A stretch of 64,000 nucleotides of DNA from assembly GCF_003605405.2 (NCBI RefSeq), contig NZ_QYTW02000029.1, forward strand, positions 1 through 64,000. The letters are read 5' to 3'. Source of the DNA: Siminovitchia terrae. GTDB lineage: Bacteria > Bacillota > Bacilli > Bacillales > Bacillaceae_C. The first letter of the stretch is position 1. Each line of letters starts with the position of its first letter. A model generated the notes under the pieces. The model had not been told where the DNA came from. It saw only the letters and a list, made by a program, of their open reading frames with translations, and made no database searches. Both the position numbers and the translations under genes were made by a program. Below are positions 22,165 to 38,128 of this stretch, piece after piece.

Positions 22165-22359
22165 TTTAACTTTATTCAGCAGAAGTCTCCCACTTCTATA
22201 AGTGGTGAGATGAATGCATATTGGTATTGCATACAGTGGGGGTTCAAACCCCGGCTGAATAAAGTTAAAGCCTCCGGCGGATGCCACAGATTTTCAGAGG
22301 AAATTTATCGAGCGAAGCTCGATAAAATCTGGGCGCAAATACGCCAAGGCGCATTTGAT
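22165..22359. repeat. Cloverleaf-type dispersed repeat, copy 1
   Basis: The first domain is closed by a perfect 16-bp inverted repeat, TTTAACTTTATTCAGC (22165-22180) with its complement at 22254-22269, enclosing three hairpins: CTCCCAC/GTGGTGAG, ATGCA/TGCAT and GGGG/CCCC around GTTCAAA, the last resembling a tRNA T-arm. A second domain has a stem CAGATTTT...AAAATCTG with inner ATCGAGC/GCTCGAT, and CAAATACGCC/GGCGCATTTG. The element is about 95% identical to 37933-38128. It is not a tRNA: the closing stem is 16 bp and no anticodon arm fits. Confidence 0.9.
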
Positions 22360-22606
22360 GTGGCCGCCTCATATTTCTTATTTCAACAGTAAAAGGTCGA
22401 AGTAGAGATTTCCAAATAATAATCTTAAACAGCTTTAAATTTTTTAATTCAAACAGCAGTTTTATGATAACCGACTTTAATACCCATAGAAAAAAGCACA
22501 TCCGAGTTGTATTTGAGTATTTAATACCCAAATTTCAACGAAGAGGTGCTTTTATTTTTCTTATTTTAATGGGGCAGTCCCGACTGAAGGGGCTTTTCTC
22601 AGCCTA
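22360..22606. other. Gap between cloverleaf repeat and abrB
   Basis: No gene is supported. AAAAAGCAC (22492-22500) and GTGCTTTT (22546-22553) are complementary over a long loop, and CAGTC/GACTG near 22575-22586 is a short stem at the 3' end of abrB; either could end abrB transcription, weakly. Confidence 0.4.
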
Positions 22607-22900
22607 TTAATTATTCACTTTATCAAGACTAAATGATTCACTGATTTCTTGGATCAATTGCTCGGCACCTTCACGGCTTAAGACCAATTTTCCACCCGCA
22701 AAAAAGGCATTATCATCGGAAACATTGCCTGTAATATGGCAAGTCATGCTCGGTTTATATTTTTTCAGAATGATTTTTTCGTCATCTACGTAAATTTCCA
22801 GTGCGTCTTTTTCTTCAATCCCTAAAGTGCGCCTTAATTCAATAGGTATGACTACCCGTCCAAGTTCATCGACTTTTCGCACAATTCCGGTAGATTTCAT
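22607..22900 (-). CDS. abrB: Transition-state regulator AbrB
   Basis: AbrB represses post-exponential genes and is itself repressed by Spo0A~P. The 97-residue protein has the swapped-hairpin DNA-binding domain KSTGIVRKVDELGRVVIPIE and a C-terminal multimerisation domain with GGKLVLSREGAEQLI. GAGAGGGG precedes ATG 22900. It diverges from metS and is read against the surrounding genes, as in B. subtilis. Confidence 0.97.
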   Translation of the reverse strand: MKSTGIVRKVDELGRVVIPIELRRTLGIEEKDALEIYVDDEKIILKKYKPSMTCHITGNVSDDNAFFAGGKLVLSREGAEQLIQEISESFSLDKVNN

Positions 22901-22971
22901 ACTACTTTTCCCCTCTCAAAAAAAACTTTATATCAAAAAATATGTTTTTTTACTACTTTATAATCAGATTT

Positions 22972-23000
22972 ATCGTACCAGTCTTTCCAATTCCCGTCAA
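22972..23000 (-). promoter_or_regulatory. Sigma-A promoter of abrB
   Basis: On the minus strand TTGACG (23000-22995), 17 bp, TACGAT (22977-22972), giving a leader of about 60 nt. No TGTCGAA-type 0A box is evident between promoter and gene. Confidence 0.65.
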
Positions 23001-23115
23001 TTAGAAGTTAAAAAAAATGTCAATTTTTTAGATAAAATTTCCTATGAATTCATGGTGCTAAATCGAGAAATTCTTCAAAGGACCTATTTTCGTGTTTCCT
23101 TGGTAACAGGTAAAG

Positions 23116-23144
23116 TTGCAGGAATCATTGATTTCACGTATATT
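23116..23144 (+). promoter_or_regulatory. Candidate sigma-A promoter of metS
   Basis: TTGCAG (23116-23121), 17 bp, TATATT (23139-23144). The resulting leader of about 73 nt is too short for a T-box, and no T-box motif is present. Confidence 0.55.
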
Positions 23145-23223
23145 TTTAGTGTAGAAGAGGACAAGATGCAAAGAATAGGTTTTGCATGTTATAAATGGCA
23201 TCTGTTAGCGAGAGGGAGGAAAT

Positions 23224-36907: not shown

Positions 36908-37153
36908 AACGATCACTTAATATGAGCATAACAAGCCAATTGCTTTTTTGCCTTTGAAGCGATTGGCTTGTACTCTTAAGCTGATGGGTGGAGCTTGGAT
37001 ATTTGATAGAATAAACGTTATTTTCTGGTCTGAGACTCCATGGTTTATTCTTGGTCACTAACTTGAACGTTTATTTCATCCATTCGACGCCAACAATTTG
37101 CAACTCTATTTTTTCATAAAAATTTAGAAAATTGATTTTCTTCCCGCCTAGAG
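36908..37153. other. Gap between prs and ctc
   Basis: An imperfect hairpin ACAAGCCAAT / GATTGGCTTGT at 36930-36971, with a T run in its loop, probably ends the glmU-prs operon. Nothing else is supported before the ctc promoter at 37154. Confidence 0.5.
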
Positions 37154-37179
37154 GTTTAACTTAATGTATGTTAAGGTAT
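37154..37179 (+). promoter_or_regulatory. Sigma-B promoter of ctc
   Basis: GTTTAA (37154-37159), 14 bp, AGGTAT (37174-37179): a strong match to the sigma-B consensus GTTTAA-N13-15-GGGTAT. ctc is the founding sigma-B gene. Confidence 0.85.
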
Positions 37180-37229
37180 ATATATGGATAGTGTACTTTT
37201 GACAACATTATGTTAGGAGAAGGTGCTAA

Positions 37230-37847
37230 ATGGTTAATGTATTGAAGGCAAAAGAAAGGACAAGCGATCGACATTCCCAGATTAGGGAGTTGAGGGAGCA
37301 GGGAGGTATTCCGGCAATTGTTTATGGCTATAAGACGGAAAATACCCCTATTTCCATCAACAATGCGGAATTTACGAAAACGATGCGTGAGGTGGGCCGA
37401 AACGGCGTTATTAGCCTCGATGTTGAAGGAAAAAAGCTAAATGTCGTCTTGCATGAATACCAGGAAGACCCTATCAAAAAAGAAGTAATCCATGCCGACT
37501 TTTTAGCCGTTGATATGTCCCAGGAGATCGAAGCGAATGTCCGCGTCGAATTATCTGAAGATGCAGAAGGGGTAAGAAACGGAGGGGTACTTCAACAAAT
37601 CCTCCATGAAGTTGTTGTTACAGCAAAGCCGGATGAAATTCCAGAAGTCATCAGTGTTGATATTTCCGGGCTTGGAATTGGTGAAACAATTTCTATCGCT
37701 GAAATCCGCGGAAATTATTCAATCACGATCAACCACGAGGATGATGAACCGATTGCTACGATTCTGGCTCCAAGAGTGGAAGAACCGGCGGAAGAAGGTG
37801 CTGAACCGGCAGGAGAAGCAGCCGATTCAGAAACGGAAGAAGCCTAA
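37230..37847 (+). CDS. ctc: General stress protein Ctc (ribosomal L25/TL5 family)
   Basis: Ctc binds 5S rRNA and appears on ribosomes under stress. The 205-residue protein has an N-terminal L25 domain (RELREQGGIPAIVYGYKTE) and a C-terminal TL5 beta domain, then an acidic tail of Glu/Ala (EEPAEEGAEPAGEA). The L25 start here (VNVLKAKERTS) follows AGGAGAAGG. A terminator lies at 37863, then the second cloverleaf repeat. Confidence 0.95.
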   Translation: MVNVLKAKERTSDRHSQIRELREQGGIPAIVYGYKTENTPISINNAEFTKTMREVGRNGVISLDVEGKKLNVVLHEYQEDPIKKEVIHADFLAVDMSQEIEANVRVELSEDAEGVRNGGVLQQILHEVVVTAKPDEIPEVISVDISGLGIGETISIAEIRGNYSITINHEDDEPIATILAPRVEEPAEEGAEPAGEAADSETEEA

Positions 37848-37862
37848 ATTATACGAAATACA

Positions 37863-37890
37863 GGCGCAACCAAAGCGGTTGCGCTTTTCC
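37863..37890 (+). terminator. Terminator of ctc
   Basis: GCGCAACC pairs with GGTTGCGC, followed by TTTT. Confidence 0.85.
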
Positions 37891-37932
37891 CCGCTTGTGT
37901 AAAACACAAGTACTTGAAAGGCAAGGATCTGG

Positions 37933-38128
37933 TTTAACTTCATTCAGCAGAAATCTCCCACTCCTATAAGTGGTGAGATGAATGCCTATTGGTATTCCAT
38001 TCAGTGGGGGTTCAAACCCCGGCTGAATAAAGTTAAAGCCTCCGGCGGACGCCACAGATTTTCAGAGGAAATTTATCGAGCTTAAGCTCGATAAAATCTG
38101 GGCGCAAATACGCCAAGGCGCATTTGAT
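37933..38128. repeat. Cloverleaf-type dispersed repeat, copy 2
   Basis: Second copy of the element at 22165-22359, with about ten differences in 196 bp. The closing stem (37933-37948 with 38022-38037) has one changed position; CTCCCAC/GTGGTGAG and GGGG/CCCC hairpins are unchanged. The middle hairpin changed on both sides (GAATG/CATTC). The domain-2 loop changed to the 18-bp perfect palindrome ATCGAGCTTAAGCTCGAT while the stem arms were kept. Confidence 0.9.

Follow-up and report, generated by a model that had tools for sequence, protein, structure and literature searches.

A probable non-autonomous element of the IS200/IS605 type in several hundred copies in Siminovitchia terrae

What kind of sequence occurs twice, nearly unchanged, within one stretch of the Siminovitchia terrae genome, and what would have moved it there? 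The stretch consists of 64,000 nucleotides (contig NZ_QYTW02000029.1, positions 1 to 64,000, assembly GCF_003605405.2; hereafter the window), and a first-pass annotation made from its letters had described in it a folded, dispersed repeat of about 195 bp, possibly an IS200/IS605-like non-autonomous element or a retron or REP-like unit. We consider it probable, at roughly four in five, that the repeat is a gene-less, non-autonomous IS200/IS605-type element, resembling the palindrome-associated transposable elements (PATEs), that is moved in trans by a Y1 transposase. The mobile, structured, IS200/IS605-like reading is supported by empty insertion sites, by many further copies and by a left end homologous to that of IS605-type elements. 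The retron option found no support, reverse transcriptases not having been part of the search. Genomes are labelled G below, with G000 (5.30 Mb in 68 contigs) being the source of the window.

BLAST of the first copy against the window (E up to 1e-3) returned only 22165-22359 (100%) and 37933-38128 (95.4%), as annotated. When 30 genome copies are aligned with window copy 2 the edges are sharp, running from TTAACTT..ATTCAGC to GGCGCATTTGAT, and the flanks are variable. Four full copies were set against the orthologous regions of other genomes in the genus set (up to five), and two of them yielded clean empty sites. At window copy 2, the filled site reads ..GGTTTAA, then the element (CTTC..TTTGAT), then ATTCATTCGG; the empty site in G003 reads ..GGTTTAAATTCATTCGG, and the G004 site is likewise empty but reads TTTAC. 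The copy at C27:49690 of G003 is preceded by ..GGATTAA, runs from CTT to GAT and is followed by AAGGGCTC, and its site is empty in the window at 49076-49079 (GGATTAAAAGGGCTC) and in G001 (GGATTAAAAGAGCTC). At both empty sites the element lies directly 3' of TTAA, nothing is duplicated or lost and the junction cannot slide, giving an exact length of 190-191 nt. A check for a target duplication had been proposed, and neither clean site has one. The annotated copy positions hold as given; the mobile unit proper is 22170-22359 and 37938-38128, TTAA being target DNA. The remaining two copies, copy 1 (22165) and G003 C27:43962, have no clean empty site, their flanks having diverged or been rearranged. 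At the G003 C27:49690 site, G004 carries a short, internally deleted form of the element (L135 14580-14671).

The features of the two copies, with the mobile-unit edges set by the junction rule from the two clean empty sites, are as follows (all on the forward strand):

22166..22169, forward strand: TTAA target bordering copy 1 on the left (TTTAA 22165-22169), from the sequence and the junction rule taken from two other copies' empty sites.
22170..22359, forward strand: copy 1, 190 nt, from CTTTATTCAGC to GGCGCATTTGAT, by copy alignment and junction rule.
22165..22180, forward strand: 5' arm of the predicted closing stem (16 bp), including the TTAA target.
22254..22269, forward strand: 3' arm of the predicted closing stem, complementary to the target and the element start.
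22186..22210, forward strand: hairpin 1, the IS605-type left-end hairpin, TCTCCCACTT..AAGTGGTGAGA with a bulged T, matching IS605-type left ends.
22211..22236, forward strand: hairpin 2, the variable middle hairpin, from the fold and the variability of the alignment.
22238..22252, forward strand: hairpin 3, GGGG GTTCAAA CCCC in the context GTGGGGG, from the fold and a paired change at 76-85.
22270..22350, forward strand: second domain of the fold, with the long stem GCCTCCGGCG..CGCCAAGGC and the inner hairpin ATCGAGC-GAA-GCTCGAT (22307-22323).
22336..22357, forward strand: CAAATACGCCAAGGCGCATTTG, an alternative hairpin of the right end that stops 2 nt short of the edge, from sequence and pairing counts.
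37934..37937, forward strand: TTAA target of copy 2, from the sequence and the empty site in G003.
37938..38128, forward strand: copy 2, 191 nt, between open reading frames 37230-37847 and 38206-38790, with a clean empty site in G003.
49076..49079, forward strand: empty TTAA site, filled in G003 (C27:49690-49885), by ortholog comparison.

Insertion 3' of a fixed short target, which in the IS200/IS605 family is a tetra- or pentanucleotide, is seen well beyond these sites. The start could be located in 184 of 185 near full-length copies from seven genomes, and TTAA stands directly before 161 and TTTAA before 140, counts that the filter for near full-length copies, which required an alignment near the query start, may raise slightly for TTAA; its background is 0.5% of window positions. 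A TTAA at the left edge and an internal 16-bp inverted repeat would also be seen in a miniature inverted-repeat transposable element (MITE) moved by a TTAA-duplicating DDE enzyme, a reading that we regard as scarcely credible: TTAA is single at both empty sites and is not repeated on the right, which rejects it, and the inverted repeat spans the left half only. There are no terminal inverted repeats, since the two ends, CTTCATTCAGC and GCGCATTTGAT, show no complementarity. In G000 one pair of copies that differ from each other stands head to tail (C7; L119 7540-7923), reading ..GCGCATTTGAT directly joined to CTTCATTCAGC.. (TTTGAT|CTTCATT) with a single TTAA. Its sequence is consistent with a junction of right and left ends from a circle or with insertion at the element's own right end, and proves neither. 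An apparent second pair in G156 was rejected; only about 12 nt of left-end sequence follow the right edge there, and then unrelated DNA.

Two copies is the count for the window, and genome-wide the number is far higher. A core 29-mer (at most 3 mismatches) occurs at 475 places in G000, 271 forward and 204 reverse, which is a lower bound since deletion forms without the 29-mer are missed; the reversed 29-mer used as a control has 0 places. At 190 nt each, the 475 places make up about 90 kb, or about 1.7% of the DNA. BLAST of the same genome returned the best 40 matches of 601 first-look candidates. The search of the whole genome and of relatives suggested in the first-pass annotation thus uncovered many further copies, in G000 and across genus, family and order, and a single local duplication is rejected by the dispersed places. 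Mean pairwise identity of the G000 copies is 92.2%. A partner at 97% identity or more exists for 41 of 116 sampled G000 copies and for none of the 18, 17, 9, 21 and 2 copies taken from G003, G004, G001, G025 and G011, respectively. With near-identical partners common in G000 and absent in the other five genomes, the G000 population is young and its spread recent.

The element's left end is what ties it to IS605-type elements. It consists of TTAA plus one base, 10-11 nt, and then AGAAGTC, a hairpin and GATGAA. The element's first 50 nt have a match immediately ahead of an annotated tnpB on a Fusobacterium animalis plasmid, and another at a Clostridiaceae plasmid site that is followed, in a reading by eye, by a tnpB remnant. 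Used alone, the 39-nt left-end motif was found in six plasmid records and two unannotated phage records; a tnpB or transposase is annotated just downstream in two of the six plasmid records (F. animalis and Mycoplasmatota) and in none of the other four. Within the same family, G031 carries TTTAAC and the same hairpin class before an intact TnpA and then the start of a TnpB (read by eye) at the contig end, and in G093 the same left end precedes a likewise intact TnpA that is 94% identical over 132 residues. Between TTAA plus one base and AGAAGTC there are 10-11 nt in the element, in both plasmid elements and in G031. A hairpin is present near each end; for the right one, no IS605 match was found. 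Relatives spanning the whole query, at 73-77% identity, occur on three IMG/VR contigs; in two cases the relative is about 40 nt shorter and lies among what are by eye phage-like genes.

Two side observations concern remnants of such elements in G000. A solitary left end, 88% identical over 49 nt, lies on C5 (L048 3026-3074), about 1.4 kb from a short tnpB remnant. Fifteen TnpB zinc-ribbon matches occur in the genome, 11 of them in frames below 150 aa, and several of the tnpB remnants (L056 1569-2852 and others) have right ends of their own, in GTTCAA.

Several observations weigh against an IS605-type element moved in trans. Transposition itself was not observed. Searched as a whole, the element matched no right end in plasmids and had no phage match at all. 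BLAST at Y1 and TnpB loci, namely at the matches that came with a locus (30 of the 38 order-level Y1 matches), revealed no autonomous parent possessing both ends; some of these loci have full copies nearby, but no such copy forms a larger unit with both ends. The relative bearing a transposase or TnpB that had been proposed as a check was therefore found in part, as a homologous left end on TnpA/TnpB elements and not as a parent with both ends. No IS605-type TnpA was recognised among the four Y1_Tnp matches of G000: one is a RAYT (REP-associated Y1 enzyme), two are IS200-like, one of these intact and the other carrying a stop, and the fourth is a fragment that resembles IS200 more than IS605. 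Lastly, no Y1_Tnp match occurs in G156 or G276, two drafts that each hold two confirmed full-length copies.

Which enzyme, then, accompanies the element? It occurs in 4 of 6 genomes of the genus; in the family 12 of 34 genomes have matches, short partial ones included, and 7 have near full-length copies; in the order it was found in 24 of 397 sampled genomes and 9 of 136 genera (E up to 1e-8). First-look candidates number 93-190 in three g60 genomes, 63-120 in eight g82 genomes and 4-30 in listed genomes with no or weak matches; they are not the same as confirmed copies, three of which were held by 55 kb of G127 not chosen for copies and none by 141 kb of G276. Of 15 positive genomes searched, three (G093, G127 and G317) yielded an IS605-type TnpA at 64% or more, again with the 30 of 38 Y1 matches that came with a locus; G025 yielded just a fragment. 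Among the genomes searched no single enzyme accompanies the element, most of them being drafts in which gaps may hide genes. Judged by the left end, an IS605-type TnpA is favoured, which may have been lost following a burst.

The family-level pattern first suggested a different enzyme, namely that the RAYT moves the element as an oversized REP/REPIN-like repeat. Within the family, RAYTs at 69% identity or more to that of G000 (69-91%) were found solely in G003, G004, G011 and G025, and all five genomes have full-length copies, so that a close RAYT is present in 5 of the 7 family genomes with such copies; G002 and G005 have neither the element nor a Y1 match. Both G003 and G004 have a copy some 0.8 kb downstream of the RAYT, and hairpin 3, being a GTGG tag followed by a hairpin, resembles the GTGGGGGTCAGACCCC repeats next to these genes. 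Order-level searches weaken this reading: at E up to 1e-25, RAYT-like proteins are present in 222 of 397 genomes, many more than the 24 with the element, and the element-bearing G040, G156, G276 and G412 are not among the 222, with G156 and G276 lacking any Y1 match. Closer to home, G001 (15 matches) and G016 (5, some partial) carry the element without a close RAYT, and no copy lies within 3 kb of the RAYT in G000. The RAYT genes also carry small GTGG-tagged repeats of their own, like the RAYTs of other genera. In G000 the gene (C13; L183 9488-10194) is flanked by GGGGTCTGACCCC and GGGGTCAGACCCC hairpins, and its locus is shared within genus g1, with no shared neighbours in G011 and G025. Places with GTGGGGGTCAGACCCC (at most 1 mismatch) number 35 in G000, 32 in G003, 48 in G004, 0 in G011 and G005, and 46 in G008, which is without the element, so the tag count tracks the element only partly. 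A general REP/RAYT link is not supported, RAYT-like proteins being common regardless of the element, and we hold it unlikely that this enzyme moves it. Stretches totalling 400 kb from RAYT genomes without good copies (G006, G013 and G009) contain other repeats, none alike by eye in a comparison made without folding. One of these, of about 120-190 nt and with the sequence AGGCTTTGTTAAA.., occurs several times in 160 kb of G006 (L226-L232).

For the orientation and placing of the copies we sampled 483 kb of G000 in 22 stretches, namely the window, one stretch around the RAYT and 20 chosen for holding copies, some of the latter including minority-strand copies. Genes were called by a simple script that leaves out open reading frames made mostly of the element. 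The sample contains 81 copies, 74 of them full, and one of the 81 lies inside a called gene, compared with 1928 of 2577 TTAA sites. The sign of the GC skew is followed by 71 of the 81 copies, and the majority gene strand of the stretch likewise by 71. Between genes of the same direction, 47 of 53 copies run with those genes; at the four places where such genes oppose the majority of the stretch, the element follows the genes once; and between convergent or divergent genes 16 of 22 copies follow the majority (p = 0.05). Because of these counts the replication strand explains the bias at least as well as transcription does, the separating cases being few. Among copies of at least 60 nt in three other genomes, 8 of 9 follow the skew (4/5 in G127, 2/2 in G156 and 2/2 in G276). 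Such a bias is as would be expected for transposition on the lagging-strand template.

The predicted fold agrees with the annotated one, a 16-bp stem closing three hairpins, among them GGGG-GTTCAAA-CCCC, followed by further hairpins. As single-stranded DNA it has -51.5 kcal/mol, compared with -21.3 (standard deviation 3.0) for 200 shuffles (z = -10.1). Two candidate identities were rejected: ARAGORN found 0 tRNA genes in the window, which disposes of a tRNA for the T-arm-like hairpin, and no Rfam family reaches its gathering score at the element (an open search of the region gave three matches, all far below gathering scores). Elsewhere in the window, 8169-8433 is a large bacterial signal recognition particle RNA and 4430-4644 a T-box leader, both above gathering scores.

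Conserved folding had been inferred from the two window copies, most of whose differences were said to preserve pairing. That does not hold within the genome: standard pairs make up 96.5% in 22 G000 copies, no more than with shuffled columns. Pairs were counted on the consensus fold, RNAalifold having given almost no structure on an 81-row alignment. For 65 genus copies the standard pairs amount to 93.5% against 93.2% shuffled, with 0 of 300 shuffles reaching 93.5%, and double changes to 11 against 5.8 expected (6 of 300 shuffles reach 11). For 81 copies from seven genomes the pairing is 92.4% against 91.6%, and the double changes, 56 against 17.4, stem largely from one lineage split. Slid pairings are 32-49% paired, a comparison in which the tested structure was derived from the consensus itself. 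Among 18 chosen copies from ten genomes, taken without a shuffle control, eight pairs change on both sides; they are spread over hairpins 1 and 3, the second domain and, in one G025 copy, the closing stem, and occur in G025, G016, G276, G127 and G156. Numbered from TTAA in copy 2, they include 23-43 in hairpin 1 and 119-169, 123-166, 124-165, 125-164 and 142-159 in the second domain. Two structures compete at the right end, the second domain's long stem and the terminal hairpin CAAATACGCCAAGGCGCATTTG; both are well paired, the latter with standard pairs in 96.4% of cells and a paired change at columns 174-189 in 12 sequences. Paired changes are clear between lineages, and pairing shows no excess within G000; the fold was therefore kept in the lines that spread.

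A fold this strong, with paired changes between lineages, copies that mostly run with same-direction neighbours and copies in two genomes without a Y1 match, might instead belong to a domesticated structured RNA or DNA family, for example one protecting mRNA 3' ends, whose mobility lies in the past. We judge this improbable: pairing in G000 does not exceed that of shuffled columns, a recent spread is indicated by species-specific insertions and by near-identical copies, and at the 4 places where local genes oppose the stretch majority the element goes with them once. In a similarly improbable reading the element has become more than a passenger. Copies read with their upstream gene could form a structured RNA whose right end lies beside a TTAA-flanked donor site, and the population might persist without a transposase, through an RNA useful to the host or as a TnpB guide scaffold acting in trans and restoring lost copies, as an IS605-derived mobile RNA family across Bacillales.

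Returning to an element moved in trans, its mechanism can be modelled on IS608 and ISDra2, which according to PMC8612924 insert 3' of TTAC and TTGAT, use the lagging strand and make no duplication. A Y1 TnpA supplied in trans, most likely of IS605 type given the left end, would bind the left-end and right-end hairpins on the lagging-strand template. The element would be excised as a single-stranded circle joined at ..TTTGAT-CTTCATT.. and would insert 3' of a single-stranded TTAA. The closing stem, in which the target TTAA pairs with a GTTAA that lies inside the element at a distance of about 90 nt, may help to present the cleavage site. The guide of IS608 has four letters. Because the target here forms part of a long intramolecular stem, a longer guide than that of IS608 is suggested. 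Following a burst, the enzyme may disappear and the copies may decay.

How does this compare with known systems? PATEs are known from Haloquadratum walsbyi, and PMC3119063, which gives their definition, describes transposase-free elements with IS605-related near-terminal palindromes, no terminal inverted repeats, no target duplication, a short target at the 5' side and strain-specific insertions, features that recall our element, in which the relation of the palindromes to IS605 is seen at the left end. Host and number differ: the element lives in Bacillales and PATEs in haloarchaea, and one family reaches at least 475 copies in a genome here, against PATE totals, all kinds taken together, of 177 and 194 for two strains (PMC3119063). 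The element also has a four-way junction that includes the target, and its right-end hairpin is unlike the left. On the whole it works like a PATE and mostly agrees with that definition, being too short for a transposase gene (190-191 nt) and having no terminal repeats and no duplication, with a right end that has no IS605 match. It shares with IS605-type elements the TTTAA target region, the left-end spacing and hairpin, and insertion 3' of a short target without duplication; it differs in lacking tnpA and tnpB, having no room for a Y1 TnpA, and ending in TTTGAT after another hairpin, whereas several G000 tnpB remnants end in GTTCAA. The bcr1 repeat of the Bacillus cereus group has about 155 bp and a different insertion signature. 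It and the element are alike as gene-less dispersed repeats (bcr1 is mentioned in PMC3733652). With REP/REPIN sequences and their RAYTs, as portrayed in PMC6006769 and PMC3733652, the element shares high copy number, extragenic position and folding; it differs in length (about 190 nt against 20-40 nt) and in having no consistent RAYT partner at the order level. REP sequences have a GT[AG]G tag beside a short hairpin; the element contains a GTGG that precedes hairpin 3, inside the element and away from the ends. Our literature search, which also used four element strings and had most subscription journals outside its scope, recognised no paper on this repeat.

Several hundred precisely bounded copies in one genome form an unusually large natural data set for single-strand transposition, in which target choice, replication-strand preference and the decay of copies can be read from sequence alone. 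The genomes that hold copies and no recognisable Y1 gene lead to a direct question for this group of elements, namely which enzyme moves them.

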